Below, one piece after another: positions 2,239 through 29,202 of a DNA stretch of 64,000 bases. The translations under genes were made by a program, and so were the position numbers. How positions within the stretch are numbered: position 1 is the stretch's first letter; every line of letters begins with the position of its first letter. Below the pieces are notes generated by a model, which was not told where the DNA came from, searched no databases, and was given only the letters and a program-made list of their open reading frames with translations. The DNA is from Mermis nigrescens (taxonomy: Eukaryota; Nematoda; Enoplea; Mermithida; Mermithidae), in the NCBI GenBank assembly GCA_036768485.1, contig JAVLUZ010000208.1:1055529-1119528 (forward strand). The letters are read 5' to 3'.

Positions 2239-4907
2239 GTATAAAAAAGTGAAATAAAATAAAATAAAAAGTTTGTAAGATTAAGATGAATTTAAGCCTA
2301 CTTACGCCAGGCATAAAGTAGGATTAAGCCATAGTGAAAAGCCGTTGGCTTCTATCGAAAATCAAGATGGTAAATGCGGCTCAGGTGAGGAGGGTGGACG
2401 CTAAAGTATTTTCAAACGAAATAATAAGGAGCAGGAACGTAGTGAAAATTCTTGAAACGCAGTGGAAAGACTGCTGGTATAAATTTCAGCAAACTTTTGG
2501 GCTAATAATCTCAAAATTATCGGGCTTTTCGCGCTGGATTTATTGTTTTTGTGCAACTTTTGTCTTCTGAAAAGCCCAAGTTTGAGTAGAATATGGTAAA
2601 TATGTCAAAATTTTCTGTAGCTCTGCCCAGAATTATTTATTTTTTCGTGATTTTCCTTTGCAATGTACCAATTGAATACAAAATAGGTTAAACAAAGGGT
2701 CAAGCTTGGACAGTGAAGCTATTTCATACAATTAATTTTTTAAATTTGATTAAAATAAAGTTAAATTTGTAAAGAAGTTCAAAATTTTTCCTTTCTTCAA
2801 TATGTAGAGAACAATGAGAAACGCTCAGAAACAGCATGATTCTTGCCTATCTACCGGTAGGTGTTGAGATATCTGACTTCAAAATCTTAGTTTCCCCTAA
2901 TTCATAAGGCTGCTTTAGAAACAGTTTTCGGTCATTTTCGTCAACTTGTTTTATATGCTATTTCAAAAAATTATGAGGCTAATACACGGGCAAAGAACAG
3001 GTCTACTCTATGTGGAAGGACAATAGGCCATCGGGTACATAGATATAGATGATAATATTTTAATATAATTATGTCTCGACCACCGGAGATGGGTAAAAAT
3101 AATGATACATTTTCTAGTTCATCCTCCCTTGGCCGTAAAAAATTTTGATAGGTAATGCCTGAAAAAATGGAAAAATTGCATTGCTTCGACTTGAATTGTT
3201 CAAATTTTCTGCGCTTCACACCAGTTCTGATTTAGTTTCCACAAGTGTAGCTCGAGCGCAACTAAAAAACGACATTTTTTAGTACAAAAAATTTTTCCTG
3301 TAAAAAATTTAAAAATTTAGGAAAATGATGAATAGAGCAATGTCTAAGAAGTTCGCGATTTTTTCGAGCTATCCCGACGAATTTCTTAAGATATAGATGA
3401 ATTTATGTTGAGTCCGTCCGCTTATTGGCCGAATTCGACGAGTAGATATATGCCTGGCTATATGTATTCCAAATTGTGCTTACTTGAGAACAAAAATTAT
3501 AGAGAAGCAATGAAGCTGGGAAAATATCTAAGATTTGAGGTCTGTTAGCTTGAAATTGCGCTAAATTTGCTTAGCAGTCTTTCAAATGCGCTTGATAAAT
3601 TTTTAAATTTATGTCGCGAGTGTCTTTAAGTGAATATAATTTATCCGAATTTTTCTACTACAATATGACGATCAATTAGGTAAGCGTTCATATAATATTT
3701 GCCAAAGGCAAAAATAATTTATTTTTTTTGCAATTTTTATTTGAATATGTTTTAATAATAATTGTAAAAAAGATCTTTTTATCAACTTTTTTTATTTATG
3801 ATCCAAGTGAAATTTGTGAAGCCTATGAAAATTCTAGTCAAGGTAGAATAGAATGAATTTTTTTGCATTTTTGATTTCAAATTGCTTTGATAATAATTGT
3901 GAATAGGATTTTCCTATCTACTTTTATTCGTTATGTTCCAAATAAAAATTTGTCAATCTAGCGAAAATTTCGGATAACGTAGATAGCCAATAAATTTTTT
4001 TGCATTCGTGATTCTAAATTGCTTTGATAATGATTGTAAGGAAAATTTTATTGCCTACTTTTACTAATTATCTCCCGAGTAAGAACTTGTCAATCCAACG
4101 AAACTTCTCAGTGCCGCTTGATTCAAATTAGATCTGTGTCATCCTATTAAAAACTCGTGTTACGAATTTAATTACGGTAATTTGCATTACACTCGGATGC
4201 AACATAAGTCTCAAATATTTGTGGAATTCAATTATTAAATAAACTGCTAAGAATAGAGTCATCGCAAATATATTTTTACCCACGTGATCGTAAAATTATC
4301 CGCAAAACACTCATAAATGCTTAAGCTTAAATTAGGGAATATTGGCGTCATTGGTCTTTAATCTTGATATAATTTTAGAATTTTTAATTTATAAATTATA
4401 GCATCATAAAAGACCGTATTAGTTAATAGACTAGCGATTAAGTGAAATTATAAACGCAAACGATAGAAATTTCCTAAACTCGCTTAGTCCAAATTTGAAA
4501 TGAGAAAAAAAACGATTGACCTAATCTTAAATTTTTAAATTTTTTAATAAAAATGTCGTTAACTCTCGAAGAATGCTCGCTTACTTAATAAAGTTGATGT
4601 CAGGAATAAATAATGCAAAATAAATTCTGGCACTGTTCATGTACGATGAGCACTAAATTCATAATGCAAAAACTTTTGAAGGCAGAGACAAAAAATTTTC
4701 AAAAAGAACGAAGAATACATAGATAAAAAAAGTAGAAATGCATCTAGAACAATCTTAAACGTGCAATCAAGTATTGTTGAATATAAGAAGAAGCTAAATT
4801 TCGAGGGGTAGTCAAGGCGGTGGCAAAACTCCCAAAGAAAAGTGCTAATAATATAGTTGGGTTTGCCAGATTCTTGGGGGTCTAATCTCCCTCTCCCGAG
4901 CCAGCGT
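2239..4907. other. Gene A intron 3, proximal part
   Basis: Intron sequence with no gene recognised. Segments at about 3880-4260 match the intron of gene B (about 58730-59060), so they date from the tandem duplication. The last six bases (CAGCGT, 4902-4907) are the candidate, imperfect target duplication of the outer Polinton (CAGGTT at 30313-30318). Confidence 0.6.
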
Positions 4908-6054: not shown

Positions 6055-6795
6055 AATTAGGTCATAGCGACGATTGGCTGTGTACAGATTGGCAACTTTC
6101 TCTGCAGCGAGCACTTTACTAAAGTAAGCCTTGATTCAGTTGTTGGGCCAGTTACATTTTGAATTTGTTCTTCAGCATCTAGGCCATATGTTCTATTTGC
6201 CTCAACATTAAGACCAGCTCTGCTTATCAACTCTAACGCTCGCTGCTTTTGCAGAATGTGTTGACTCTTGTCGCCTTTTCAAATGGCTTTCAAATGTGGA
6301 TCTGTGTCTAACCTTGCTATTCCTGTTATAACAGCTCAGAGCAGTGATAAATCATCTCGAGATGTAATTTCAATATAATTTTCTTCTTCTGCAGAATTCA
6401 TCTGCAGTTGTAAAATCAATAGAGAGGCCCACACCTCATTGTGGTTTGTGGTCTAACCATATCATCACTGAACTTAAATTCCCTCTTTGATTCAGACATT
6501 TTCTCCATTAAGCTAAAAACTTTGTCAGCATTCTTATTTTTACGCCTAGTGAGTGGTAGAATTACAGGCTCGAACAAGTCTGAGTGTGGGATTCCAAAGT
6601 CAATCATGTTTTCGAAAGGGCACTTAGGTAACATATTCTGGATAGCACTATCAAAAAAGGTTCCAATTTTTTAAATAGATTTGGACATTTGTGTACGTTA
6701 GAAAATTTAAGTGAATAAGCCTTTACTGTTGTTCTAAATCTACAAACAAGAATGAAAGCAAGTCTGTCTACTGTGTAATATTGATTAACGTCCAT
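6055..6795 (-). pseudogene. Outer Polinton PolB N-terminal region, broken
   Basis: The - strand start at 6795 (MDVNQYY...) and a second frame at 6416-6634 align with the inner Polinton reading frame 9881-10369 (shared ...NADKV.S..E...S...F..S-D pattern). Further down, to about 6055, a third stretch with stops resembles the region before the exonuclease domain of Polinton protein-primed DNA polymerases, as I remember that family. Several frameshifts and stops make it a relic. The polymerase domain itself is not seen. Confidence 0.55.
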
Positions 6796-7833: not shown

Positions 7834-9191
7834 AGTAGTTATACGTGGCCCCCTAGCGGCAACGCTATAACATAGGCAATGGTTAAGCATAGACAATTAT
7901 TAGGAATAGACAACGTTATAACATAGGCTAACGCTATAACATATACAATGCATAAGGATAGGCGAGGGGTGGAGCCTTGCGCCCTGAGGTAGGGGCCAGG
8001 GCGCAATGGTTAAGGATAGGCAATGGTTAAGGATAGACAATGGTTAAGGATAGGATATAGTTGAGGAGTGGAAGGGTCAAAATTGGCAGGGTGCCAGCTT
8101 AGGCTTAAGTGTAACCTAAGACTAAACCAGAATGAAGATTAAAACTAGACTAAACCCGAACTAAGATTAAAACTAGACTAAACCCGAACTAAGACTAAAA
8201 CTAGACCAAATCTGAATTTAGTGTAAACTAAGATTAAAGTGAGCATAGTTGTAAAAAACATAATTTTGTGTTAAACTATGGCTACCCAGCTACAACGTTC
8301 CTGGGGGGAGGAGGAGCCCTCCAATGCATCCCCTACAATACTTATAAGCAGTGGTCCGCTCTTGCAACACATCAATACGCCTATGCGTATTGTGTGTATC
8401 CATTGCCATTCAGTCTAAAAATTGCCTTAAATGTGCCAAAGTATGGCAAAACTAAGCAGAAGGACTGTGCAGCAGTGGTCCGCTCTTGCTACCACTGCCA
8501 CTCAGTCTAAAAATTGCCTTAAATGTGCCAAAGTATGGCAAAACTAAGCATAAGGACTGTGTATCAGGGGTGCGCTCTTGCTACCCCTGCCACGCAGTCT
8601 TAAATATATCGAAAATGTGTCAAAGTAAGACAAAACTAAGCTTAAGGACAGTGTAAACTAAGCTTAGGTAAGCCAAGGGGTAAAACAAGCCTAAGCATTA
8701 TAGAAATTTATCAAGCAGTGTATGGCTTCCTGGCCCTTTATATTCACCTGGCAGATTATGCAATTAAGTCTAAATATGAAGTAAGTTTGTAAGCTAAGCC
8801 TAGCTGAGCTAGGGATTAAAGTGGGCCTAGGCACAAAAGGAGTGTGTATATATAAGTTTGACTTACCAGTCCTTCGAATTCACGGTCCTTCGATGTCCCA
8901 TTTTTGACTTCCCGGTCCTTCAATTTCCTGGTACTTCGTCACTTCCTGGTCCTTTGACTTCTTGGCCCTCGCTTAGATGTGTTGAAGCAGTGGTCCGCTC
9001 TTGCAACACATCAACAGGTCTACACATGTTGTGTGTACCCCCTGCCATTGCAAATAATGGATTAATTAAGCTAAAATCTTAGATTTCTCGGGGTTAGCCA
9101 GTATTTGCGACCCGTCTTCGATTGTTGTGGCCCACAATTCAGGCGTTATCAGTTGCTCATGTTGAGTGGCGTCGTAGACGATTATATGGTT
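7834..9191 (+). repeat. Middle element left arm, outer segment
   Basis: Inverted match to about 25855-27204. It contains CTATAACATAGG-type words, GACTAAACCCGAACTAAGAT subrepeats (8110-8230), GCAGTGGTCCGCTCTTGC repeats and a short inverted pair GATGTGTTG/CAACACATC (about 8980-9013). The last six bases (ATGGTT, 9186-9191) are the target duplication of the inner Polinton. Confidence 0.85.
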
Positions 9192-9960
9192 AGTACTTAG
9201 GCGTGGGTCCCTAGGGAGCAATGCTATAACATAGCCTGTGTTATAGCATAGGCGGGGACGTTAAAATCTGCGCCCTGGCTTTTCTCAGGGCGCAAGAATT
9301 GGGCGTGCCCGGACCTGCCCGGGGAGGGTGCGCGCGCCAGCCCAGGGCCAGGGGCCCAGGGGTAGGGGTGCAATAGCCCAGGGGGTTATAACCCAGGGGG
9401 TTATTACCCCGCGGGTTATTTGTGAAGAGGCGTAAGTCAAGAACCAGCGGTCGGATTGGGCTCAAATTTTCAGAGTATATTAGGTATATGTTAGACATGC
9501 TATGTAAAAAATTTCAGTGCGCAGCCTACAGTATACCAGCATTAGTTTACACTTTTTCATAAATCCAGGACCAATGCTTGGATTTTGTTCTAAATTTTCA
9601 GGAAATGATGTATATAGGCGAGGCATGCCATGCACAGAATTTAAGCGCGCAGCCTACAGTATACCAATTTACTTTACACTTTCTCATATAGTACTCTAAC
9701 TTTAGGGATAGAGGGCGGATTTAGCTCAAACTTCCAGGGTAAGATATATAAATTGTTGCTGCGCTATGTACAAAATTTTAGCGCGCAACCTACAGTATAC
9801 CAATTTTTTACAATGCTCCCAGGAAAAATTGTGTGCACGTGCTCAGGCAGGGGCCCAGAGTCAGATGGGGGACACTACCGCTACTTTACACCGCTGTATG
9901 ATCGTTCGTGATGCATAATATTCTCTTGCTTGCTCACTGAAATGTTGCCACAGATTAGCT
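9192..9960 (+). repeat. Inner Polinton left terminal inverted repeat
   Basis: Inverted match to 18119-18735. It has three copies of a roughly 130-bp unit with the word GCGCAGCCTACAGTATACCA (about 9517, 9645, 9778). The right repeat has two copies, which explains most of the 769 versus 617 bp length difference. Confidence 0.85.
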
Positions 9961-10369
9961 TACGAAAAAACTCCCTCACATCAGGTTCAAGGCCAGTTCC
10001 GGTTTGTTGTTTTTTGTCAATAATAACTAATTTGAAAGCTTTGTCCTCGCTTAAGCAAAACTCGTTCTTAGACTGGGCTACATTTTCAATAATGCTCAAA
10101 ACCTTGTCAGCATTTATATACTCACGTTGAGTAAATGGAACTAACACAGGTGCATGAAGGCACGGTAGTCTAATTTCAATACCTACCAAAGAGTCAGGAG
10201 GACAGTCATGCAAGATATGCTTGATAGCTTCCTCAAAAATCTGCTCAAAGACCTCAAACAGATTAGGGCATTTCTTAAACCGCAGCAAAAATGCTCTTGC
10301 AGTTCTCTTGAACCTACGAACAAAAATCTCTGGGAACTCATGTACTTCAAAGTATTTATTCAGATCCAT
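9881..10369 (-). pseudogene. Truncated N-terminus of Polinton PolB-type protein
   Basis: A 162-codon frame. Residues 1-136 resemble the N-terminal domain that precedes exonuclease and polymerase domains in Polinton PolB proteins (MDLNKYF start, then a conserved RRF.RTARAFLLRFK stretch). From residue 137 the frame runs into the terminal repeat (9960) and stops at 9881. A deletion has therefore fused the beginning of the gene to the inner edge of the repeat, removing the exonuclease and polymerase domains. A TATA box lies 36 bases upstream on the - strand. The family assignment rests on memory and on a homologous relic in the outer element. Confidence 0.6.
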
Positions 10370-10404
10370 TTTTAATGTAAGAACTTTATGGAGTTATACT
10401 TGCC

Positions 10405-10416
10405 CATATTTATAGA
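10405..10416 (-). promoter_or_regulatory. TATA box, PolB gene (inner Polinton)
   Basis: On the - strand TCTATAAATATG, 36 bases before the ATG at 10369. It is divergent from the + strand box at 10430. Confidence 0.7.
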
Positions 10417-10429
10417 CATACAATCAAAA

Positions 10430-10441
10430 TCTATAAATACT
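10430..10441 (+). promoter_or_regulatory. TATA box TCTATAAATACT, zinc-ribbon gene
   Basis: Exact consensus box. The ATG at 10490 is 49 bases downstream. Confidence 0.75.
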
Positions 10442-10489
10442 AATAATGGTCTACTGTTTAAACACTCTTTTTAGTACGATAAGGAGAAA

Positions 10490-10818
10490 ATGGAAGGAAT
10501 CAGGGAAATCCAAAAGCGTCTTTTTCTGGATGAGGAGAAGAAGCCATATGGCCGGTCCATCAAACCGGCCATCGAGCTATGTGGGAGGAACTTGGATCGG
10601 CCCATGTACTCCTAATGATCCAGCTTTGCTATTTTTGTCAGAAAAATAGTTCTGAAAGGGACTTTTTTCGAAACAAATTCTGGTAGGGGTACTTGAATAT
10701 CCAAATGTGCCCTAGGTGCAGCGAGTTTAATAGAGCCATGCAGGAAGCGGGCAAAAGAGTGCTGAAGCGCTATTCTGATCAGCAGGCTGAGGAGGAAAAG
10801 GCCAAAACAGCATACTAA
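10490..10818 (+). pseudogene. Small zinc-ribbon protein gene, broken
   Basis: The start (MEGIREIQKRLFLDEEKK) opens a basic segment. A frameshift near 10605-10620 leads into a frame with Cys pairs C-Y-F-C (10627-10638) and C-P-R-C (10708-10719), then an Arg/Lys/Glu-rich tail ending at TAA 10816. An in-frame TAG lies at 10684. The outer element has relics of both halves. The two CxxC pairs suggest a zinc ribbon of about 105 residues. Function unknown: DNA binding or transcription would be a guess. The next TATA box begins one base after its stop. Confidence 0.55.
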
Positions 10819-10819
10819 G

Positions 10820-10831
10820 TCTATAAATAAG
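10820..10831 (+). promoter_or_regulatory. TATA box TCTATAAATAAG
   Basis: Begins directly after the zinc-ribbon gene stop. The ATG at 10875 is 44 bases downstream. Confidence 0.7.
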
Positions 10832-10874
10832 GGTGCGCGTTAGGTATATTATATATGCAGCTCTTAAAGAAAGC

Positions 10875-11201
10875 ATGTCTTCACCCGGTGAACTAAGCGT
10901 ACCATCATTTTGTCCGAAAGCTTATTGAAAAAGCTAACAATCGCTACTTGAGCGTCAGGAATGTTCAAAGCATAGGCTCCTGTTTCTGGGGTTACATGAG
11001 CGATGCGTTTAAAGAGGAACAGCGCGAAATTGATAAACGCGAAGCGTTTTGGATTTTGCATTGAGACTGAAAGCAGCCATTTTAAACAAAGATGTTGATT
11101 CTTTGTGCGGCTTGTATCTGGTTTTTGATCAAAATGGAAAGAACATGTGGGAAAACATGTATGATAACTGTATTTTGCAAGAAGTAGATCGTTTGTTGTG
11201 A
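10875..11201 (+). pseudogene. Conserved small Polinton gene (YHHFV family), broken
   Basis: After MSSPGEL the frame shifts into a stretch with YHHFVRKLIEKAN and SCFWGYMSDAFKEE, then shifts again to a final segment ending at TGA 11199. The outer Polinton has an open copy (27357-27608) with the same YHHFV.KL..KA and S.C.W...SD.FKE patterns, so this is a real gene family of about 100 residues. I know no function for it. No signal peptide or membrane segment is apparent. It stands between the zinc-ribbon gene and integrase in both elements. Confidence 0.55.
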
Positions 11202-11301
11202 ATTTACAGTAAAATGTGCGTTTTCGAAAAATGCAGGCTCCCTTGCTCTTAACCTCTACGTGGTGGGAGCCAGAAACGATCCATTTGATCGGCCAATAAG
11301 A

Positions 11302-11312
11302 GCATAAATATT
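11302..11312 (+). promoter_or_regulatory. TATA box GCATAAATATT, integrase gene
   Basis: Weaker variant of the box, 27 bases before the integrase ATG at 11339. Confidence 0.5.
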
Positions 11313-11338
11313 AAGGAATAAAATAAAGAAATGTAAAA

Positions 11339-12399
11339 ATGGATAAATTGTTGACAAAATTATATTATGACCCTCAAACTGGGTATACGGGGGCGAATCA
11401 ACTTATTGCTCGAGTGAAAAAGGTGCGCCCAGCTACAAAATTTGAAAAGGTAAAAGCATGGTTGGAAAAACAACCCACGTATACACTACACAAACCTGCA
11501 AAGAAACATTATTCACGTAACAAGGTAATCGTTAGCGGGGTTGATGAGCAGTGGCAAGCAGATTTGGTTAATCTGCAATCGTTAGCCGACCACAATCATA
11601 ATTTTAAGTACCAACTCAATTGTATTGATATTTTCTCAAAGTACGCATGGTCAGTGCCACTTAAAACAAAAACTGGTAAAGAAATTATTGCATCTTTTCA
11701 GAAAATTTTCAAATCGTTCGGGCCGTAAACCATATGAACTGCAAATGGATCAGGGAACTGAGTTTACAAACAAGGAATTTCAGCAATTTTTGAAATCTCA
11801 ATTTATTGACTTTTTCACGACCAAAAGCGAAATGAAAGCTAGTATTGTTGAGTGGTTTAATCGTACGCTTAAGGAACGCATGTGGCGGTATTTCACTAAA
11901 AAGAATACATTTAAATATATTGACATTTTGCCCGATTTGCTTGAAAATTATAATAATTCTTTTCATAGGACCATTGGTACATTCCCTGCTAATGTTACCT
12001 ATAAAAACGAAAGAGAAATTTTGAACAAAGCATTCAGAATTGATAAACCGAACGTTGTTTTTTAAATTTGAAATTGGTGATAAAGTTCGTATAAGTAAAG
12101 TGAAACGCACAATCGAAAAAGGATTCTGGCCCAACTGGACCAAAGAATATTTCATTGTTAAGGAGAGGTTTGCTCGCACACCACCCATTTATACTCTCGA
12201 AGATCAAAAGGGGGAAAAATTAGAGGGTGTTTTCTACGAAACCGAGTTGCAGAAAATTATTTCAAAATCAGATGATTTATTTGTGATTGAAAAAAATTAT
12301 AAAAATTCGTAAAAAGGCAAGAAAACTGATTATTTGGTGCGCTGGAGAGGTTACCCGCCTAAATTTGACTCGTGGGTTTCTGATATTGTAAAGCTATAA
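11339..12399 (+). pseudogene. Polinton integrase (rve family) with C-terminal chromodomain, broken
   Basis: A retroviral-type DDE integrase that would join element ends to host DNA and generate the 6-bp duplications. The first frame (129 codons) includes the first catalytic Asp (residue 75, QADL). A one-base frameshift near 11722 leads to the second Asp (QMDQGTEF, codon 11748-11750) and the catalytic Glu (codon 11850-11852) before NRTLKERM. A second frameshift lies near 12050. A chromodomain follows (DYLVRWRGYPPKFDSW), interrupted by an in-frame TAA at 12310 and ending at TAA 12397. All catalytic residues are present, but the gene cannot make one protein as it stands. The terminal stop lies inside the next TATA box. 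Confidence 0.85.
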
Positions 12400-12404
12400 A
12401 TAGT
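12394..12404 (+). promoter_or_regulatory. TATA box CTATAAATAGT overlapping integrase stop
   Basis: The stop codon TAA (12397-12399) is part of the box. The ATG of the next small gene is at 12427. The outer integrase relic has the same overlap (28782-28793). Confidence 0.65.
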
Positions 12405-12426
12405 AAGTTAAATCTTAAGATCAAAA

Positions 12427-12631
12427 ATGGTGTCTATTGGTCAGTGTTTTTTCAATCATATTCTACATTGTTTATCACAATACGCATTTGTCTAATGATG
12501 CCATTGGTGATTATTTTTGGCCAAAAATGAGCAACCAGTATAGGCAAACATTGCTTAAATTTGATGATCATGCTATTTTGAGCTTCTCAAAGTTTATCAG
12601 AGCCGAACCTCCACACAAAAATCATTCATGA
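12427..12631 (+). pseudogene. Small conserved Polinton gene downstream of integrase, frameshifted
   Basis: The ATG frame ends after about 22 codons. The homologous 50-codon gene of the outer Polinton (28821-28973) is open, and the comparison shows a 2-base deletion here near 12483. The conserved part includes LSNDAIGDYFWPKMSNQYRQ. Function unknown. Confidence 0.5.
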
Positions 12632-13392
12632 ACAATCAGTATTGATCTAAAAATTTGCAAAGTTTGGAATATTTTTTGTAAAGTTTGGAATATTTTTGTA
12701 AAGTTTGGGATATTTTTTGTAAAGTTTGGAATATTTTTTGTAAAGTTTGGAATATTTTTTGTAAAATTTGGGAATAATTTTACATGCTTAAGCATAGTAC
12801 TTTTGTAAAGTTTGGAATATTTTTTGTTGAGTTTGGAATATTTTTTGCTAAAGTTTGGAATATTTTTTGTAAAGTTTGGAATATTTTTTGTAAAGTTTGG
12901 CATTGTCAAAACTATTTTATATGCTCTGTGCAACTCATGCTCCTGTTTTGCACCTGTAAGGATCAATTTTCCGCTTGTGAACAGCAAAAATGTTATATTT
13001 CTGAATTTGTATATTAAGCCAGGAAACAATTCCACTTCATACATGCATTTTCTTTTCACCAGCTCATAAAATTCGCAAAGATTAATGCGGAACCCTAAAT
13101 TAGCAGAGCCTACAAACATATGGGGTTTCACCTTTGAATCATCACTCCTAGCATTTAATGCATCTACAGCTGCTTTTATAGCACTTTCACCATCTTTCAC
13201 TGTTTTGGCTCCAACACATACAATTTTACCTGATTTGAAAATCAGTAATGTTGCCTGAGGTAGTCGAAATACAATTCCTGGAAATCTCAAATAATTGTAT
13301 TGTGCAGTCTTTGGTAATTTCTGGTATATTTCTTCGAGGTTAAGCGTATGGGGCAGTGCTGTAGTCAGTAAAATATTTTGTATAGTCACCAT
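12622..13392 (-). CDS. TATA-binding protein (TBP) homologue encoded by the Polinton
   Basis: 256 codons from ATG 13392, chosen because it is 28 bases from a - strand TATA box and because upstream Mets overlap the divergent ATPase gene. Residues 1-162 form the TBP core: repeat 1 (about 2-80) with RFPGIVFRL and LLIFKSGKIVCVGAK, and repeat 2 (about 92-162) with YEVELFPGLIYK and LLFTSGKLILTGAK. These are the diagnostic TBP motifs. Phe37, 52, 123 and 138 occupy the four DNA-intercalating positions. Residues from about 163 to the stop translate a minisatellite, so the natural C-terminus is overwritten or extended. The coding region is intronless and lies between integrase and ATPase. It presumably binds the TATAAATA boxes of this element. 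TBP homologues are known in some giant viruses; I know of none in Polintons. Confidence 0.88.
   Translation of the reverse strand: MVTIQNILLTTALPHTLNLEEIYQKLPKTAQYNYLRFPGIVFRLPQATLLIFKSGKIVCVGAKTVKDGESAIKAAVDALNARSDDSKVKPHMFVGSANLGFRINLCEFYELVKRKCMYEVELFPGLIYKFRNITFLLFTSGKLILTGAKQEHELHRAYKIVLTMPNFTKNIPNFTKNIPNFSKKYSKLNKKYSKLYKSTMLKHVKLFPNFTKNIPNFTKNIPNFTKNIPNFTKIFQTLQKIFQTLQIFRSILIVHE
12655..12905. repeat. Minisatellite, unit about 21 bp (GTAAAGTTTGGAATATTTTT)
   Basis: About ten diverged units, with a non-repeat interruption at about 12770-12805. It covers the 3' end of the TBP-like frame. The same unit family occurs in both arms of the middle element. Confidence 0.85.
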
Positions 13393-13395
13393 TTT

Positions 13396-13407
13396 TCTAT
13401 AAATACT
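13396..13407 (+). promoter_or_regulatory. TATA box TCTATAAATACT, ATPase gene
   Basis: Exact consensus, 31 bases before the ATPase ATG (13439). It lies in a 46-bp divergent intergenic region shared with the TBP gene promoter. Confidence 0.8.
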
Positions 13408-13419
13408 TCCTGATAAACT

Positions 13420-13431
13420 TATATTTATACC
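13420..13431 (-). promoter_or_regulatory. TATA box of the TBP-like gene
   Basis: On the - strand GGTATAAATATA, 28 bases before the TBP ATG (13392). If the product binds such boxes, the gene could regulate itself. Confidence 0.65.
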
Positions 13432-13438
13432 TAAAACC

Positions 13439-14101
13439 ATGATGTTCCAACATCCTTTCACCTGCCTTGTTTCAGGACCAACAAAGTCAGGCAAAACAAC
13501 ATTTGTCAAGCGATTAATTGAGAATAGAGCATGCCTGATTGATACTAAAATTAAAAAGATTTGGTGGTGCTTCGCAGAAAATCAGCCTCTTTATAAAAAA
13601 TTAAATGATGTTTCATTCATAGAAGGGCTTCCTGATTTTAATTACCTAAAACAATTTAGTCATGTGCCTCAACTTTTGATTCTCGATGATCTTATGCAAC
13701 AGAGCAAGGGTAATGCCCAGATTGTGCAACTTTTTACAAGGAGTTGTCATCATTGGAACATTAGCATTATACACATTGTTCAAAACGTTTTCTTTGATGG
13801 TCTAAGAACTTCACGCATCAACTCTGATTATATAGTTTTATTCAAACACCCTGCTGATCAGTTACAGGCACAAATGCTTTCCAGACAGCTCTATCCTGCC
13901 AACGCTAAATATTTTCTAGAAGCTTATTCTGATGCTACTTCTCAGCCACATGGTTACCTTTTAATTGATCTAACTCAAAATGCTAGAGATGAGCTGAGGC
14001 TTAAAACAAATATTTTTAGCAGGCATCCAACTGTTTATATGCAGAAATCTATAAATACTAGTAGAGATATTGTGACAAAAAAATGGGTAAAGAACGATTA
14101 A
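13439..14101 (+). CDS. DNA-packaging ATPase (FtsK/HerA, A32-like)
   Basis: Intact, 220 residues. Walker A GPTKSGKT is at 13-20 and Walker B LLILDD at 79-84, followed by a QLFTRSCHHWNISIIHIVQN segment typical of this family. In Polintons and related viruses this motor is thought to pump the genome into the capsid. The length is normal for Polinton ATPases. The ATG follows a consensus TATA box by 31 bases. The 3' end contains the TATA box of the next gene (14048) and overlaps that gene by 19 bases. The outer Polinton has a broken copy (29203-29696). Confidence 0.93.
   Translation: MMFQHPFTCLVSGPTKSGKTTFVKRLIENRACLIDTKIKKIWWCFAENQPLYKKLNDVSFIEGLPDFNYLKQFSHVPQLLILDDLMQQSKGNAQIVQLFTRSCHHWNISIIHIVQNVFFDGLRTSRINSDYIVLFKHPADQLQAQMLSRQLYPANAKYFLEAYSDATSQPHGYLLIDLTQNARDELRLKTNIFSRHPTVYMQKSINTSRDIVTKKWVKND
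14048..14059 (+). promoter_or_regulatory. TATA box TCTATAAATACT inside the ATPase gene
   Basis: Exact consensus, coding as SINT within the ATPase C-terminus. It is 24 bases before the ATG at 14083. Confidence 0.75.
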
Positions 14102-14433
14102 CACGCAATATTGGTTGTTTACATCTCCTAAGTCAAGCAAAAAAACCTCAAAGAACCGCTATTATAAATACTGCCAGCAAAGATCAAATCCTTTGTCTCT
14201 GTGACTGTGCAAACAACTTTCTGAATGGTAATATTCCTTTCGATAAAAAGGATATAAATAAACTTCGAAGATATCAGAATCAAATTAGATACCTGGCAAA
14301 CAATAAGCAGGCGACTACAAAACAAAAGAAAGATATTATAATACAGGAAGGTGGTTTTCTTCCTCTTTTACTTACTCCCATACTTACAATAGCTGGTAGT
14401 TTATTAGCTGATGCAATAGCTGGTAGAAAATGA
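14083..14433 (+). CDS. Small basic virion-core-type protein (adenovirus pX-like)
   Basis: 116 residues: a Lys/Arg-rich N-terminal half, a central CLCDCANNFLNGNIPF segment, and a C-terminal IIQEGGFLPLLLTPILTIAG hydrophobic stretch. This layout (basic domain, then a Q-x-GGFL...LL.PIL tail) recurs in Polintons and in related adintovirus-type elements, where a virion-core or pX-like role has been proposed. I place it from family memory; the role is inference. It overlaps the next gene by the ATGA arrangement (start 14430, stop 14431-14433), which suggests translation from one transcript. Confidence 0.7.
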   Translation: MGKERLTRNIGCLHLLSQAKKPQRTAIINTASKDQILCLCDCANNFLNGNIPFDKKDINKLRRYQNQIRYLANNKQATTKQKKDIIIQEGGFLPLLLTPILTIAGSLLADAIAGRK

Positions 14434-14995
14434 AACATACTGAAAAAATGATTCTTATACCCGCTGAAATCAGCGAGCGGACTAAACCTATTGATGTTGT
14501 GCTAGATTCCTTGGATAATGAATTGCAAAAAGTTTTGCATAGCAAACGTATAGCTCCTGAAATAAAACTCATGAAATACAATCAGGTGCTTAACAGATTT
14601 AAACGACTATATGAACAAAAGCAGCAGCCATATAGAGCTAGTATAGTTGACAATACAAAGAATGCATTGAGTGATGAAGATGTGCTTGTTGGTATGCCAA
14701 AAATCAGATCCCAAAGGCAAAACTCCTTCTTCACTACATTCGTACAAACCCATTTATTGAAATTGAGCCTAATGGTGAGCTTGTGATAGATGGCAATAGA
14801 ATTGAAGGCTCAAACATTACAGATTTAGTTAATGATCTTGCACGTGAGCGTAAGAAAATAAGCAGGCACCCTGGCACAAAAGAATTGCTGAAAGTGTTTA
14901 ATCGTACAAATGTTCCACTGGAAAGTATAGTAAATAGACAAGGTAAGGAGATTTTTGCTGCAGGTGGGGAATTCGACTGGGATGAAAGTCTATAA
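14430..14995 (+). pseudogene. Conserved Polinton protein of unknown function, one frameshift
   Basis: The first frame (14430-14786) starts MKHTEKMILIPAEISERTKP. The second frame carries the rest, including GSNITDLVNDLARERKK, and ends DWDESL at TAA 14993. Homologous Polinton proteins contain both parts in one chain, so a single-base change near 14710 has broken the gene, or the sequence has an error. The frames overlap, so ribosomal frameshifting cannot be excluded. The stop is inside the next TATA box. No enzyme motif seen. Confidence 0.6.
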
Positions 14996-15000
14996 ATACT
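14989..15000 (+). promoter_or_regulatory. TATA box TCTATAAATACT overlapping a stop codon
   Basis: Exact consensus. Bases 14993-14995 are the stop of the preceding gene. The next ATG (15037) is 37 bases downstream. Confidence 0.8.
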
Positions 15001-15036
15001 TATCACATATAATTTATTCAAAACAAAATTACAAAA

Positions 15037-15486
15037 ATGCACGTTCAATTCAATCCTAACGATTACAACATTTGGTTGGACTACTACACAGGGCAGGCTG
15101 CCCAAACAGGCTATGGGTTGGAAGGGTATAAAGGCATCCCATACCAGCGGGGCGTAGGTCTTGGCAGTTTTTTCCGTTCGCTTTTTAGAATGGCAGTCCC
15201 AGTTTTGCAGTCAATTGGTAAGCGAGTTGGAAAACATGCTCTAGTTGCAGGTTCAAACATAGCGTCTGATTTGGCCCAGGGAAAACCGCTTTTTGAGTCT
15301 ACTAAAGAACACTCAAAGCGAGAAGCTGCTCAATTGTTTGATGAAGCCTCTCATGCCCTTCAGCAGCAGCAAGGAGAGGGTCTTGGTAGCCGCCCAAAGT
15401 CTATAAATACTAGCATGATAGATGCTTTTTCAAAACAAAAAAATGGCTCTCGTAAACGGAAAATCTATCCCCAGTACCAAGACTGA
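15037..15486 (+). CDS. Capsid-associated Polinton protein (pVI-like candidate)
   Basis: 149 residues. It has an N-terminal YNIWLDYYTGQA segment, then GYKGIPYQRGVGLGSFFRSLFR, which is Gly-rich and followed by an amphipathic stretch, then GKRVGKHALVAGSNIASD and a Gln-rich and Lys/Arg-rich C-terminus. Proteins with this pattern sit just before the major capsid gene in many Polintons. A membrane-active, protease-processed pVI-like role is a suggestion only. It overlaps the capsid gene by 44 bases from ATG 15443. Intact. The consensus TATA box of the capsid gene lies inside it. Confidence 0.7.
   Translation: MHVQFNPNDYNIWLDYYTGQAAQTGYGLEGYKGIPYQRGVGLGSFFRSLFRMAVPVLQSIGKRVGKHALVAGSNIASDLAQGKPLFESTKEHSKREAAQLFDEASHALQQQQGEGLGSRPKSINTSMIDAFSKQKNGSRKRKIYPQYQD
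15400..15411 (+). promoter_or_regulatory. TATA box TCTATAAATACT, major capsid gene
   Basis: Exact consensus within the preceding coding sequence (read there as SINT). The chosen capsid ATG (15443) is 31 bases downstream; this spacing favours 15443 over 15422. Confidence 0.78.
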
Positions 15487-16735
15487 ACTGGACCTTTTTA
15501 CGGTCCCTCCTACTCAAGTAGTGATAAAGCGTGGTTTTTGGCATGAAATTCAACCTACAAATCCTATTACTAATGAGGGACCATATGAATTTAGAGTACC
15601 TCCTGATCCACATTACATTCAGCTCAATAAAAACTACATTTACATGCTACTGAGAATCAAAAAACCAGTAGTTGCTGCTGGAGCAGCAGTGCCTGACTAT
15701 GCGCCTATCAATCTTATTGGTAAGACTTTCTTTAAGCAGGTAAAATGCTTTTTAGGAGGCAAATTAGTTTTTGACAGCTCTGATAAATATGCATATAGAT
15801 CGTATTTTGAAACCGAATTAAATTATGGGTATGATGCCAAGCATTCGCATTTGCAATCTGCGCTGTACTTTCACGAAGGTGGAAGTGATGTTGACACAAA
15901 AGACAATGAAGCTTTCAAAAAACGTTCAAAAATGTTCAAAGATGAAAATGTTGTGGAAGTTGCGGCCCCACTGCACATTGACATGTTCTTGCAAGACAGA
16001 TATTTAGTTAATTTTACCGATTTCCGCCTAGAATTACACAGAAATAATAATGCATTTGTTTTGCAGTGCTTTGAGGATGTCAGCCTTGACTTGAAAGTCT
16101 CACAAATGAAATTTTTTATTCGAAAAGTTGAGGTTTTGGACACTGTGAATTTAGCTCTTGAGCAAACAATGCTTTCCTATACAGCAAAATATCCCATAAG
16201 GAGAGTAGCTTTGACTAATTTGCACATTTCAAATCCTGCTAGAGAAACGCCCAATTATACATTGTTTACTGGTCAGCTGCCTAGGCGTATAGTGTTTGCT
16301 TGTGTTGAAGGCAGTGCTTATCGAGGCAATCTAGCAAAATCGCCTTTCAACTTCAAACCGTTCAGCATAAATGATGTAAAAGTAACGTGTGGAGGTATAA
16401 CGTATCCTGCTTACCCACTCAGCATTTCATTTAAACATGACAGGTACTTGCAAGCCTATACTCAGATGTTTGATGCATTAGATATTGGGCATGAAGGTAA
16501 TTTTATTAGCAGAGAAGATTTTAAAACAAGTCACTGCTTCTTTGTGTTCGATTTGACTCCTGATGCGGATGATGGAGGACACTGGGACCTAGTTCGTGAA
16601 GGAACAACAAGCATCGCTGTTAGGTTTTCTGAGAATTTGCCCGATTCTGGCATTGAAATCATTATATATGCTGAATTTGATAACTTAATAATGATTGATA
16701 AAAACCGAAACACGTTTCATGACTATGATGCATAA
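15443..16735 (+). CDS. Major capsid protein (double jelly-roll)
   Basis: Intact, 430 residues from the ATG at 15443 (an earlier in-frame ATG at 15422 is closer to the TATA box than seems likely). It matches the Polinton major capsid family: an N-terminal TELDLFTVPPTQVVIKRG segment, then YAYRSYFETELNYG after the first barrel strand region, and a C-terminal AEFDNLIMIDKNR ending. The length is normal. It would form the hexameric shell units. It is followed after 2 bases by the protease gene, and the order capsid, protease, penton-like is compact. Preservation of this frame contrasts with the broken integrase. Confidence 0.92.
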   Translation: MALVNGKSIPSTKTELDLFTVPPTQVVIKRGFWHEIQPTNPITNEGPYEFRVPPDPHYIQLNKNYIYMLLRIKKPVVAAGAAVPDYAPINLIGKTFFKQVKCFLGGKLVFDSSDKYAYRSYFETELNYGYDAKHSHLQSALYFHEGGSDVDTKDNEAFKKRSKMFKDENVVEVAAPLHIDMFLQDRYLVNFTDFRLELHRNNNAFVLQCFEDVSLDLKVSQMKFFIRKVEVLDTVNLALEQTMLSYTAKYPIRRVALTNLHISNPARETPNYTLFTGQLPRRIVFACVEGSAYRGNLAKSPFNFKPFSINDVKVTCGGITYPAYPLSISFKHDRYLQAYTQMFDALDIGHEGNFISREDFKTSHCFFVFDLTPDADDGGHWDLVREGTTSIAVRFSENLPDSGIEIIIYAEFDNLIMIDKNRNTFHDYDA

Positions 16736-16737
16736 AC

Positions 16738-17154
16738 ATGAACACTATTGAAATATTCAAAATTCTCAAACATAATAATACATTTGCAGGCGTTTTCCCA
16801 ATAGATCGTCTGCCACCTATAAGAACCTACCCTGCGGCTCTAGTTGTAAATTTGGACCCCAGTGAGGAACCAGGATCACACTGGATCGCAATTTATTTTC
16901 AAAATAAGAAGCATTGCAACTATTTTGACAGCTATGGCTTAGAACCACCTGTGCAATTGCATAAATACATTTCTGATAATGCGCTCTCATTTACATACAA
17001 TAATATGCGAGTACAAGAGCTTTTCTCAATCAGCTGTGGTCATATGTGTATCTACTTTTTGGTCTGCATGAGCAAAGGCATAAGTTTCACAAACATTGTT
17101 CTATCTATGCTCAGTGAAAAAATTTATAAATATTTCAATAAACTAAGGTTATAA
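16738..17154 (+). CDS. Adenovirus-type cysteine protease (maturation protease)
   Basis: Intact, 138 residues. The catalytic set of the adenain/Ulp1 fold is visible: His48 (GSHWIAIYF), Asp64 (YFDSYG), Gln93 and Cys100 (SISCGHMC), with the Gln-to-Cys distance of seven residues as in adenain. It is expected to process capsid precursor proteins during virion maturation. It starts 2 bases after the capsid stop without a clear own TATA box, so it may be read from the capsid transcript. A TATA-like box for the next gene (17123) is inside its 3' end. Confidence 0.9.
   Translation: MNTIEIFKILKHNNTFAGVFPIDRLPPIRTYPAALVVNLDPSEEPGSHWIAIYFQNKKHCNYFDSYGLEPPVQLHKYISDNALSFTYNNMRVQELFSISCGHMCIYFLVCMSKGISFTNIVLSMLSEKIYKYFNKLRL
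17123..17134 (+). promoter_or_regulatory. TATA box TTTATAAATATT
   Basis: Variant box inside the protease 3' end, 24 bases before the ATG at 17158. Confidence 0.6.
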
Positions 17155-17157
17155 AAA

Positions 17158-17937
17158 ATGGATATGAAACAGTTTTACATAACGCTTCCGAGCAATTCAC
17201 AAGAAACAAATACTGCAGCCACATTTGTTACCAATCTGCCTAGACAAATCGCATTAACTGGCGACTGGGAGGTTGGGTTAGCTGAAATAATTTATGCAAA
17301 TACATGGCACAATGTTGCCGAGGAGCAGAATATGATACAGTTTTATGACATCAAAAACAATGTGCGACAAAAATTGCTTATTCCTCGAGCAAGATATTTA
17401 AATATACATGACCTCATCCAAACCATGAGGAATGGAATAAAAACGGTTAGCCAAATAGACAAATTTGATTACATGCAATATTTTGGCATAAAGTATGATG
17501 AAAATAGGAAATTTTGTAACTTAACAATCAATACTGAATATATTCAAAGTGTAAAGCTGACAAAGCATTTAATGTATATGCTAGGATTTCTAGAGAGCCA
17601 GCTTAGCAATATAGATTATACTGTAAAAAAAGAATTAAACATAGTTGCGCACCATTCACCCGACATGCTAGGTGGAATGCACAACTTTTAAGTATATTGC
17701 GATATAGTTGAGCCTCAAATCGTTGGAAATGTATTTGCACCGCTTCTGCAGGTTGTGAATATAGAAGGAAAATATATGGATATTGTTAATCACGCATATA
17801 TTAGTCCACATTATATACCTGTGCTCAAAAAATCATTCAATACCATTGAAGTGAACATTAAAAGTGATCAAGATAAACCTGTGCCTTTTGAATTTGGCAA
17901 AACAATTCTTAAAATGCATTTCAGGTATCGGCTATAA
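17158..17937 (+). pseudogene. Penton-like minor capsid protein with one in-frame stop
   Basis: A 259-codon frame interrupted only by TAA at codon 178 (17689-17691); both parts are otherwise open in the same frame. The start FYITLPSNSQETN and the LTGDWEVGLAEI motif are typical of the Polinton minor capsid (single jelly-roll, penton-like) protein. The C-terminal part has SPHYIPVLKKSFNTIEVNI and a FGKTILKMHFR ending. Either the gene is freshly inactivated or the stop is read through. The terminal stop (17935-17937) lies in a TATA-like GGCTATAAACA. Confidence 0.75.
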
Positions 17938-17940
17938 ACA

Positions 17941-18220
17941 TTTTATTTTCACACCTGCTTCGCCTGAACAGCGTATCCACCTTTGCCTTAGGCAGATACT
18001 TTTGGTCTAAGCTCAATGCTGAGTACAAACAAAGTTTAGTAGAAAATGATGCTGAGGCTATCAGCAATTTTTCCAAACTTGTCAAACAATGTTTCACTTT
18101 TCGTGATTTGCCTACCGTAGCTAATCTGTGGCAACATTTTAGTGAGCAAGCAAGAGAATATTATGCATCACAAACGATCATACAGCGGTGTAAAGTAGCG
18201 GTAGTGTCCCCCAACTGACT
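17941..18220 (+). pseudogene. Unidentified reading-frame remnant entering the right terminal repeat
   Basis: A + strand frame without ATG runs from about 17940 through 18119 into the repeat (LWQHFSEQAREYYASQT is coded inside the repeat) and ends near 18215. It may be the tail of a lost gene. Product not recognised. It means the present inner end of the terminal repeat contains former coding sequence. Confidence 0.4.
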
Positions 18221-18735
18221 CTGGGCCCCTAGCCTGAGCTGGCGTGCACACAATTCTTTCTGGGAGCATTGTAAAAAATTGGTATACTGTAGGTTGCGCG
18301 CTAAAATTTTGTACATACGATATACTTAACATATACTTAACATTTTTTGAAAATTTGAACAAAATCCAAGCATTGGTTCTTGAGTTATGCAAAAGTGTAA
18401 ACTAATGCTGGTATACTGTAGGCTGCGCGCTAAAAGTTTGTACATAGCATGTCTAACATATACCTAATATACTCTGAAAATTTGAGCCCGATCCGACCGC
18501 TGGTTCTTGACTTACGCCTCTTCAAAAATAACCCCAGGGTAATAACCCCCTGGGTTATTGCATCCCCCTCCCCCTGGGCCCCTGGCCCTGGGCTGGCGCG
18601 CACCCTCCTGGGCAGGCCCGGGCACGCCCAATTCTTGCGCCCTGAGAAAAGCCAGGGCGCAGATTTTAACGTCCTCGCCTATGCTATAACGCAGGCTATG
18701 TTATAGCATTGCTCCCTAGCCCACGCCTTACTACT
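18119..18735 (-). repeat. Inner Polinton right terminal inverted repeat
   Basis: Inverted match to 9192-9960, with two instead of three 130-bp units. It ends CCCACGCCTTACTACT, followed by the target duplication ATGGTT. Confidence 0.85.
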
Positions 18736-19209
18736 ATGGTTCCATATGACCGTTATTAGCCGCTGGTTGGTGACCCATATTCGCGAGTCGATTAGCCGTT
18801 TTAAGATATCAAATGAAGGCGCCATCATAGCATGTATTATTAATGTATTATTAATATTATTAATTATCCATCACTCTTTTTTATAGATCTCAACTTCCTG
18901 GGATGTGGCGTAACATGTATAGACATGAATTAAATGAGTAGTGGTATGTGACGTAATGGGATGTTAATTTATAATAGGATGTAATCATAACACGCTCATT
19001 TTAATTCATTAATGCTTAAAACCTTTCATTTCAACACAATTAATGCCTCAGAAACATAATTAGCATGTATTATTAAGCTTTAGTTGGTTCAATCACTTCT
19101 TATTTATTTATATAATTTGAAGTAAAGCGCGCATTTAATGCAATTACATGTGAGCATTGCAAATGGCTTATAGATTGTAGAATAATTAGAAAGAAAGTGT
19201 AGGCAAATT

Positions 19210-19648
19210 GAGCAGTTTAGAAAAAAGTAGCAGAGATTGGAAAAAAAGTGTACAGAGTTTCGAAAAAGTGTGGAGTTTGGAAAAAAGTGTGCAGAGTTTC
19301 GGAAAAAGTGTGCAGAGTTTCGGAAAAAGTGTGCAGAGTTTCGAAAAAAGTGTGCAGAGTTTTAGAAAAAGTGTGCAGAGTTTCGGAGAAAGTGTGCAGA
19401 GTTTGGAAAAAAGTGTGCAGAGTTTGGAGCATTTTTTAAACGTTATAACATAGGAAGTGTGCAGAGTTTCGAAAAAAGTGTGCAGAGTTTCAGAAAAAGT
19501 GTGCAGAGTTTCGGAAAAAGTGTGCAAGTTTCGGAAAAAGTGTGCAGAGTTTGGAAAAAGTGTGCAGAGTTTGGAAAAAAGTGTGCAGAGTTTGGAAAAA
19601 AGCGTGCAGAGTTTGCAAAAAGTGTGAAGAGTTTGGAAAAATACCGAG
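19210..19648. repeat. Minisatellite GTGTGCAGAGTTTCGGAAAAA, left arm
   Basis: About 20 units of 20-21 bp, interrupted once at about 19437-19455 by ACGTTATAACATAGGAAGT. The inverted counterpart is at 24962-25388. Confidence 0.9.
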
Positions 19649-25388: not shown

Positions 25389-27210
25389 TACACTTTCTTT
25401 CTAATTGTTCTACAATCTATGAGCCATTTGCAATGCTCACATGTAATTGAATTAAATGCGCGCTTTACTTCAAATTATATAAATAAATAAGAAGTGATTG
25501 AACCAACTAAAGTTAATAATACATGCTAATTATGTTTCTGAGGCATTAATTGTGTTGAAATGAAAGGTCTTAAGCATTAATGAATTAAATTGAGCGTGTT
25601 ATGATTACATCCCAGTATAAATTAACATCCCAGTACGTCACATACCAATACTCATTTAATTCATGTCTATACATGTTACGCCACATCCCAGGAAGTTGAG
25701 ATCTATAAAAAAGAGTGATGGAGAGGCTGGCACTATTATTCAAAAAATTTTATGCTATGATGGCGCCTTCATTTGATATCTTAAAACGGCTAATCGACTC
25801 GCGAATATGGGTCGCCAACCAGCGGCTAATAACGGTCATATGGAACCATATAATCGCCTACGACGCCGCTCAACATGAGCAACTGATAACGCCCGAATTG
25901 TGGGCCACGACAATCGAAGACGGGTCGCAAATACTGGCTAACCCTAAGAAATCTAAGATTTTAGCTTAATTAATCCATTATTTGCAATGGCAGGGGGTAC
26001 ACACAACATGTGTAGACCTGTTGATGTGTTGCAAGAGCGGACCACTGCTTCAACACATCTAAGCAAGGGCCAAGAAGTCAAAGGACCAGGAAGTGACGAA
26101 GTACCAGGAAATTGAAGGACTGGGAAGTCAAAAACTGGGACGTCGAAGGACCGTGAATTCGAAGGACTGGTAAGTCGAAACTTATATATACACACTCCTT
26201 TTGTGCCTAGGCCCACTTCAATCCCTAGCTCAGCTAGGCTTAGTTTACAAACTTACTTCATATTTAGACTTAATTGCATAATCTGCCAGGTGAACATAAA
26301 GGGCCAGGAAGCCATACACTGCTTGATAAATTTCTATAATGCTTAGGCTTGTTTTACACCTTGGCTTACCTAAGCTTAGTTTACACTGTCCTTAAGCTTA
26401 GTTTTGTCTTACTTTGACACAGTTTTAGATATATTTAAGACTGAGTGGCAGGGGTAGCAAGAGCGGACCCCTGATACACAGTCCTTATGCTTAGTTTTGC
26501 CATACTTTGGCACATTTAAAGCAATTTTTAGACTGAGTGGCAGTGGTAGCAAGAGCGGACCACTGCTACATGCAGTCCTTCTGCTTAGTTTTGCCATACT
26601 TTGGCACATTTAAGGCAATTTTTAGACTGGAGTGGCAGTGGATACACACAATACGCATAGGCGTATTGATGTGTTGCAAGAGCGGACCACTGCTTATAAG
26701 TATTGTAGGGGATGCGTTGGAGGCTCCCCCTCCCCCAGGAAAGTTGTAGCTGGGTAGCCATAGTTTAGCACAATAGTATGTTCTTTACAACTATGCTCAC
26801 TTTAATCTTAGTTTACACTAAATTCAGATTTGATCTAGTTTTAATCTTAGTTCGGGTTTAGTCTAGTTTTAATCTTAGTTCGGGTTTAGTCTAGTTTTAA
26901 TCTTCATTCGGGTTTAGTCTTAGGTTACACTTAAGCCTAAGCTGGCACCCTGCCAATTTTGACCCTTCCACTCCTCAACTATATCCTATCCTTAACCATT
27001 GTCTATCCTTAACCATTGCCTATCCTTAACCATTACGCCCTGGCCCCTACCTCAGGGCGCAAGGCTCCACCCCTCGCCTATCCTTAAGCATTGTATATGT
27101 TATAGCGTTAGCCTATGTTATAACGTTGTCTATTCCTAATAATTGCCTATGCTTAACCATTGCCTATGTTATAGCGTTGCTGCTAGGGGCCACGTATAAC
27201 TACTAATGTG

Positions 27211-28788: not shown

Positions 28789-28793
28789 ATAAT
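28782..28793 (+). promoter_or_regulatory. TATA box CTTATAAATAAT overlapping the integrase stop
   Basis: 28 bases before the ATG at 28821. Confidence 0.55.
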
Positions 28794-28820
28794 GATTTTA
28801 GTCCCACTATAAAATGAAAA

Positions 28821-28973
28821 ATGGAGAATAGCCAGTGTTGTTTTAACCTTATTCTGCATCGTTTATCACAATACACTTATTTGTCTAATGATGCAATTGG
28901 GGCTTATCTCTGGCCAAAAATGAGCGATCAATATAGACAAGCATTGCTCGAACTTAATAAGAATGCTGCTTAG
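28821..28973 (+). CDS. Small conserved Polinton gene downstream of integrase, open copy
   Basis: 50 codons starting MENSQCCFNLILHRLSQY, then LSNDAIGAYLWPKMSDQYRQ, ending at TAG 28971. The same gene lies after integrase in the inner Polinton but is frameshifted there. Function unknown; no known motif. The TATA box upstream supports a real gene. Confidence 0.5.
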   Translation: MENSQCCFNLILHRLSQYTYLSNDAIGAYLWPKMSDQYRQALLELNKNAA

Positions 28974-29095
28974 GTGAAGTTATTCAGGTTATGGTAATTT
29001 TTAAGTCCGAAGACTACCTTTTATTTTGCAAATGCTGTACACATAAAACATTGATTAGCACATCACCTCATCTATGTCAATCATTCTGGTCTAAA

Positions 29096-29150
29096 AAAAG
29101 TGTGCAAATGGTAAAAGTGTGCAGAGTTTGGAAAAAGTGTGCAAAAAGTT
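29096..29150. repeat. Short minisatellite tract GTGTGCAGAGTTTGGAAAAA
   Basis: Two to three units of the family that forms long arrays in the middle element, located between the small gene and ATPase relic, where the inner Polinton carries the TBP-like gene and its own minisatellite. Confidence 0.7.
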
Positions 29151-29157
29151 TTAAAAT

Positions 29158-29169
29158 GTTTATAAAAAC
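29158..29169 (+). promoter_or_regulatory. TATA box TTTATAAAAACT, ATPase relic
   Basis: 34 bases before the ATG at 29203. Confidence 0.45.
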
Positions 29170-29202
29170 TGATGTTAAAAAGTTCTGAAAACAATTATAA
29201 AC

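Follow-up and report, generated by a model that had tools for sequence, protein, structure and literature searches.

A conserved and diversified TATA-binding protein gene in Polinton-type elements of the nematode Mermis nigrescens

To our knowledge Polintons are without an RNA polymerase, and how their genes get read is poorly known. The locus presented here raises the question of whether such an element may own a general transcription factor, as a frame at 12622–13392 of the 64,000-nt stretch of DNA analysed (the window, to which coordinates refer unless another locus is named) had been predicted to encode a TATA-binding protein (TBP) captured by a Polinton to direct its own transcription. 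The predicted length of 256 codons was right and the strand was corrected: the frame runs on the minus strand from an ATG at 13392 to a stop at 12622, many stops being present on the plus strand of this interval, and the TBP part covers no more than residues 1 to ~164.

The Pfam TBP family (PF00352) matched the window frame with 137 bits against a cut-off of 22.9 (E=2e-40) in two stretches representing both repeats, which bears out the two pseudo-repeats originally read and removes the lack of a profile hit as an objection. The best PDB chain was the TBP of Sulfolobus (1mp9, E=2.4e-27, residues 2–161), and the TBP saddle fold, proposed earlier as a structural check, was found. All four DNA-intercalating phenylalanines are present where they had been placed, at positions 37, 52, 123 and 138. 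Residues ~165–256 are read from 21-bp repeats (a 91-nt reference present ten times in register), which stand in place of the natural C-terminus and stop; other open copies of the same type (group I, see below) end in ...AYKIVSTMLEKCRLDT or a close variant at a length of ~170–171 residues. Two 21-bp minisatellites of the window share a AGTTTGGAA core, one in the 3′ end of the TBP frame (12650–12900) and one beside the element (19243–19642).

The element borders of the original prediction were exact. The 6-bp target duplication ATGGTT lies at 9186–9191 and 18736–18741, the termini read AGTA, and the terminal inverted repeats extend for ~0.6–0.8 kb with indels (four main blocks of 75–201 nt, 91–97%). 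A related unoccupied site at 25689–26034 on the minus strand has the flanks of the element joined with a single repeat copy. Inverted termini starting with AG and a 6-bp target duplication are a hallmark of Polintons/Mavericks, and both are present here. The integrase consists of two sub-cut-off rve pieces of a broken frame, homologues of which adjoin TBP in 25 of 28 group I loci, while the matches to the A32-like ATPase and the adenain-like protease are both barely over their Pfam cut-offs (Table 1). With a capsid-type gene (weak match) added, this is the content of Polintons/Mavericks and adintovirus-like elements. Unlike Polintons/Mavericks, the window element carries a TBP, has no polymerase B among the frames tested (no match among ten window frames searched with Pfam nor among three frames of L089, an upstream piece of a relative) and spans ~9.5 kb, Polintons typically being longer at 15–20 kb. 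The Polinton label is justified by the integrase, packaging ATPase and adenain-like protease together with the AG-termini and the 6-bp duplication; the match to capsid protein is weak. No relative of the window capsid protein was detected in IMG/VR or phage records. F54H12.2 is a name for capsid genes of such elements, and no paper pairing it with polinton was found. The window copy is decayed, as its integrase is broken and one gene is split into the frames at 14430 and 14678, which relatives, for example L004 and L017, have as one continuous frame; the TBP core is open despite this decay.

Table 1. Positions of the element, its genes and selected TATA-like boxes in the window, with the evidence for each.
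Feature	Position	Strand	Evidence or remark
Polinton-type element	9192..18735		Inverted repeats, target duplication, related empty site
162-aa conserved element gene	9881..10369	-	TCTATAAATA box at 10407-10416, minus strand
TCTATAAATA box ahead of short gene starting at 10490	10430..10439	+	Longer homologue of the short gene in L089
Integrase (rve), frame broken into pieces	11339..12312	+	Two Pfam rve pieces, E=4e-5 and 4e-6, each under curated cut-off
21-bp minisatellite in place of natural TBP C-terminus and stop	12622..12900	-	Repeat family D2; other open copies end at ~171 aa
TBP core, residues 1-165 (TBP part ends at ~164-165), intact frame	12898..13392	-	Pfam and PDB matches
TCTATAAATA box of ATPase gene	13396..13405	+	3 nt from TBP start codon
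GGTATAAATA box of TBP gene	13422..13431	-	37 nt before TBP ATG
Packaging ATPase (A32-like)	13439..14101	+	Pfam Pox_A32, 23.0 bits, cut-off 22.8
Small gene, hydrophobic C-terminus, suspected minor virion protein	14083..14433	+	Weak Adeno_PX match, E=0.07, under cut-off; box at 14048-14057
Small gene, suspected minor capsid protein	15037..15486	+	Sequence only; box at 14989-14998
Major-capsid-type protein	15443..16735	+	Weak Pfam DJR-like match, E=0.007, under cut-off; box at 15400-15409
Adenain-like protease	16738..17154	+	Pfam Peptidase_C5, 24.2 bits, cut-off 21.3
177-aa conserved element gene	17158..17691	+	Homologues in group II elements; box TTTATAAATA at 17123-17132

A number of other sequences were noted in and around these elements. 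An HDV-like self-cleaving ribozyme is predicted at 11236–11305 on the plus strand (RF02682, 47.4 bits against a gathering score of 44), ~34 nt before the integrase ATG; a match just below gathering (42.7 bits) lies at the matching place in the group I copy L015 (2619–2689, minus strand), and none was detected in seven other scanned group I loci, most of which include ~100 nt before the integrase and one less. A second, badly decayed Polinton with integrase and ATPase remains lies at ~27798–29696 of the window; it gave no TBP match, is too degraded to serve as a TBP-free control, and has minisatellite units of the 21-bp type at the expected place of TBP. A fragment homologous to the 162-aa element gene lies outside the element at 6461–6795 on the minus strand (40–44% identity). 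Locus L089 holds a conserved 264-aa gene (2664–3458, minus strand) with no Pfam match over cut-off, which may resemble the N-terminus of Polinton polymerase B.

The distribution of the gene was followed in a 524-Mb assembly of the genome (523,963,438 bases, 860 contigs). The window TBP as query found at least 150 places (2171 first-look candidates) at 74–100% identity; by hand count 119 of the 150 listed matches contain no internal stop, and the gene is not the single-locus copy that would have spoken against the prediction. A human TBP query recovered the host TBP at C73, split over two exons (87% and 76% identity), and at least 148 further places at 33–44% identity. The window TBP is not a chance occurrence, as at least 149 further close places and at least 148 divergent ones exist in the same genome. 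The published genome comprises 524,220,005 bp in 867 scaffolds with 83.98% repeats, the significance of which is said to be unknown (PMC10989877). For the mermithid relative Romanomermis culicivorax 6.5 Mb of polintons are given, with no mention of TBP in the accessible text (PMC10879605).

Forty-five of the 148 listed divergent places were sorted by eye using sequence and neighbours, and 16 of them entered the first tree described below; none of the 45 belonged to group I, that of the window copy. In group II (27 places) TBP lies downstream of at least one of capsid, protease and two further element genes (25 of 27 by tblastn), and in group III (5 places) the integrase adjoins TBP in every case. 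In group IV (13 places) a search with the window proteins placed the ATPase next to TBP in three and detected no window genes near TBP in the remaining ten. Among 28 group I loci the ATPase adjoins TBP in 27 and integrase sequence does so in 25, and the arrangement of TBP between integrase and ATPase, suggested as a search in other Polintons, is common to this group. Taking the ATPase as the starting point (at least 150 places), a listed TBP place lies within 1.3 kb in 41 cases out of the first 43, and in 66 out of the first 86. Six of the 20 ATPase places without a listed TBP were fetched, and all six proved to have TBP sequence in its normal position, with frame breaks in three. Of two later ATPase places, TBP is present at L096 and was not found in the ATPase neighbourhood at L095. 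Upstream of the ATPase of L090, a group II locus, there was no TBP among frames of at least 80 residues, and the group II TBP therefore lies at the other element end. It is concluded that Polinton-type elements have a real TBP gene, which is conserved and has diversified.

At L016, L017 and L018 the TBP and integrase pieces are 54–76% identical to those of the window and the ATPase 86–96%, the TBP/integrase half of elements having apparently recombined with the ATPase/capsid half. It should also be noted that within a 3.5-kb stretch of L085 a pair of TBP frames stands in opposite orientation, as also in L060 with a partial second frame, and that close opposite-strand TBP pairs occur elsewhere (e.g., C814:153408 and 155001).

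The element TBP is under purifying selection. Comparison of the window type with L016, L018, L026 and L027 gave dN/dS values of 0.11–0.16 at dS near 1, and with L023 a value of 0.33; pairs within subfamily A gave 0.11–0.84 (L015 and L028 were left out of the group I table due to frame differences). Two pairs from group II gave 0.20–0.21, five from group IV 0.08–0.24, and a single pair from group III, with few changes, 0.56, six of the 14 pairs in the group II–IV set being saturated (nan).

To place these proteins, two IQ-TREE trees of 50 rows each were constructed, in which long branches are present (VIR_L037, VIR_L039, ARC_P0005, I_L026, II_L056 and IV_L075 were left out of the second). Groups I, III and IV together with protein P0009 form one clade (96/88 and 97/89), joined by P0129 and P0148 in the second tree, and the group II TBPs form a separate clade (100/100). 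Human TBP is the partner of the host TBP (100/92 and 99/97), cellular eukaryotic TBPs including that of the host stand apart from both Polinton clades, and archaeal TBPs lie across a supported branch in both trees. The element TBP does not group with the host gene as a recent retrocopy of it would, and the tree outcome that would have spoken against the prediction did not arise. Descent of all Polinton TBPs from one origin is compatible with the data (p-AU 0.219), as is a topology that joins the I/III/IV clade to the cellular TBPs, apart from group II (p-AU 0.086); Polinton TBPs may have had one or two origins. Of the proposed capture, it stands that the TBP belongs to Polintons, while the acquisition is old, common to element lineages and not made by the window element.

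For the second tree P0129 and P0148, by identity, and four eukaryotic rows were chosen among the best 120 of 6404 protein matches, most of which best 120 are cellular TBPs by name or identity. P0009 is 56% identical to the window TBP, and P0129 and P0148 are 57–58% identical to L080; all three lie on contigs of 1.4–2.1 kb with the source codes lgn (read as Logan) and jgi. As these three come from other data, the Polinton TBP clade probably extends beyond this genome; the Logan data could include the same species. A broad TBP alignment searched against IMG/VR yielded 12 viral contigs, of which seven entered the first tree and five the second, and most of their TBPs grouped with archaeal TBPs and none within the Polinton clade. 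Searches of IMG/VR with the window TBP and with group I alignments, one of them including P0009, gave no relative.

The residues on which TBP function depends were compared using human numbering, in which we take E284, E286 and L287 as TFIIB contacts, five basic residues as TFIIA contacts, and N167 and N257 as the central DNA-contacting asparagines. Six of seven group I representatives keep all four phenylalanines and six of seven keep E284/E286/L287, the exception in both cases being L023 (F214 to Ile), and in group III one of the four intercalating positions, F305, is Tyr. Across the representatives of all groups there are few exceptions at the intercalating and TFIIB positions (L023, L062 and the Tyr of group III). 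The last TFIIB-contact residue is L or I in the element TBPs as against Q in two archaeal rows. Group I mostly retains a single one of the five basic TFIIA contacts and groups II–IV several, and a predicted loss of TFIIA contacts is clear in group I only. Both central asparagines are kept in the group II–IV representatives; in group I and P0009, N167 is kept and N257 is replaced by Met or Leu. This pair is a mark of function, not of homology, and without N257 the TBPs of group I and P0009 could bind TATA DNA differently or less strongly.

TATA-like boxes were detected ahead of many element genes. The TBP and ATPase genes are divergent with 46 bp between their start codons, and the box of each gene lies inside this interval. 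Of 28 loci, 27 retain the box on the TBP side and 25 that on the ATPase side, in 23 of them as TCTATAAATA; the DNA between the two boxes differs among subfamilies, the boxes being kept. In the 64-kb window CTATAAATA occurs nine times against 1.6 expected from shuffles, and eight of the nine are inside the 9.5-kb element, which makes up 15% of the window at similar G+C (binomial P=2e-6). A TATA-like box lies ~33–58 nt upstream at 11 of 14 tested starts, seven being exactly TCTATAAATA (three of the 14 start positions were off by 1–3 nt). No box was found at the tested starts 14430 and 16738, each directly after another gene, and 14696, a doubtful start. Counted on both strands, TCTATAAATA occurs 28 times in 48.9 kb of group I (14 loci), three times in 10.4 kb of group III, three times in 24.5 kb of group IV and three times in 27.6 kb of group II (all in L081), in loci that differ in the genes held and with near-identical copies that are not independent. 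Exact TCTATAAATA precedes a gene once in group III (L053) and twice in group IV (L074 and L080). Group II elements mostly have other TATA variants such as GATATAAATA and AGTATAAAAG, with few boxes upstream of capsid-side genes. A change of the box with the TBP lineage was considered and found to be weak, the density of TCTATAAATA in group IV being no higher than in group II.

It is likely that the TBP functions in the element's own transcription, as supported by the boxes at 11 of 14 starts, the kept TFIIB-contact residues and purifying selection. The mechanism we favour, with fair though not high confidence, is that a stripped-down TBP of ~171 residues would be made by the element, would bind TCTATAAATA and close variants before most element genes, and would hand the bound boxes to host TFIIB and then RNA polymerase II. 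Such an element-owned core promoter factor would not need host TFIID and perhaps not TFIIA either. Box binding, TFIIB recruitment, bypass of host TBP and the stage of action are here all inferred. Several observations speak against this explanation: the loss of N257 in group I and P0009, the tested gene starts with no box, the scarcity of boxes before group II capsid-side genes, the ATPase neighbourhood L095 with no TBP, the restriction of a clear TFIIA-contact loss to group I, and the dN/dS of 0.33 for L023. The main weakness of this explanation is that the host TBP may read the element boxes; as it should also recognise TATAAATA, the boxes do not prove a dedicated factor.

This same property would suit a role in host interference, in which the element TBP competes with host TBP/TFIID or titrates TFIIB, damping host transcription or rival elements, and host TBP serves the element boxes too. 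A single small TBP gene with few TFIIA-type contacts in group I is what a competitor might have, and several divergent TBP lineages in one genome would fit competition between elements. However, a mere competitor would not need all of the phenylalanines and the TFIIB triad, which nearly all representatives keep, and the repetition of the box within the element points to use on its own genes; interference is considered unlikely. Less probable still is that the TBP acts by bending DNA during integration, packaging or replication and has no part in transcription. Its place between integrase and ATPase in group I and beside the integrase in group III would agree with this, as would the likely reliance on host machinery of an element with no polymerase B among the frames tested. 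Against it, the group II TBP lies at the other end, after capsid-side genes, leaving no fixed link to the integrase, the boxes precede genes and are not at the element ends, and the TFIIB-contact residues are kept. That a processed host TBP merely hitch-hikes in a repetitive element, functionless for it, is conceivable given the exons of the host gene and the minisatellite tail of a window copy in an element with a broken integrase, but is hardly credible and already contradicted by dN/dS of 0.08–0.24 in unsaturated between-subfamily comparisons of groups I, II and IV, the 119 of 150 listed places without an internal stop, a clade distinct from host TBP and the relatives in other data.

Returning to transcription of the element by its own factor, a broader form of this reading is offered tentatively and is thought somewhat more doubtful than probable. 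Animal Polintons of one whole branch may have their own core-promoter system, in which the element TBP is paired with a house TATA box. This box would be TCTATAAATA, found at its highest density in group I, with group II elements using other TATA variants such as GATATAAATA and AGTATAAAAG. TBP and box would have coevolved in several lineages and allow TFIIA- and TFIID-independent transcription by host RNA polymerase II, and the TBP clade would be as old, or nearly so, as the split of cellular eukaryotic TBPs.

The element TBPs resemble cellular TBPs and TBP-related factors in the two-repeat saddle, the intercalating phenylalanines and the TFIIB triad. They differ in lying in mobile elements, in one frame without the host-gene intron and in a clade of their own, at ~32–44% identity to cellular TBPs, and those of group I are without most basic TFIIA-contact residues. 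Among viruses, one comparison gives TBP in 59% of mirusvirus genomes against 0% of Nucleocytoviricota (PMC10132985). Mirusviruses are DNA viruses with a TBP of their own, as the window element has, and differ from it in size, their genomes being large. Giant viruses, among them Chrysochromulina parva virus BQ1 and megavirus, also encode a TBP, and that of the former has been proposed to redirect the host RNA polymerase. Theirs is described as accompanied by a viral TFIIB and in megavirus also by viral RNA polymerase subunits, in which they differ from the element. The vTBP of beta- and gammaherpesviruses binds TATA boxes and contacts host RNA polymerase II for late genes, six viral proteins being involved in all according to the abstract (PMC7498053); it works with five other viral proteins, whereas the element TBP is a single small protein with plain TBP homology. 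The 20 best viral structure models compared with the window TBP gave TM scores of 0.46–0.74 at 11–21% identity. No description of a Polinton TBP was found in the literature searched, which did not extend to subscription papers and preprints, so that absence is unproven; the text examined in the papers so retrieved deals with other viruses or host elements.

TBP ownership is not limited to large viruses, since the window element is the smallest genome among the TBP-bearing viruses and contigs compared. With a general transcription factor carried by the element itself and a matching box that recurs in it, Polinton transcription can be tested directly, using one small protein and a single 10-bp site. 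Should the clade prove to be as deep as placed, its elements have retained a TBP unlike both the archaeal form and that of modern cellular eukaryotes. The TBP-bearing elements also give content to part of the genome of Mermis nigrescens, reported as 84% repetitive (PMC10989877).
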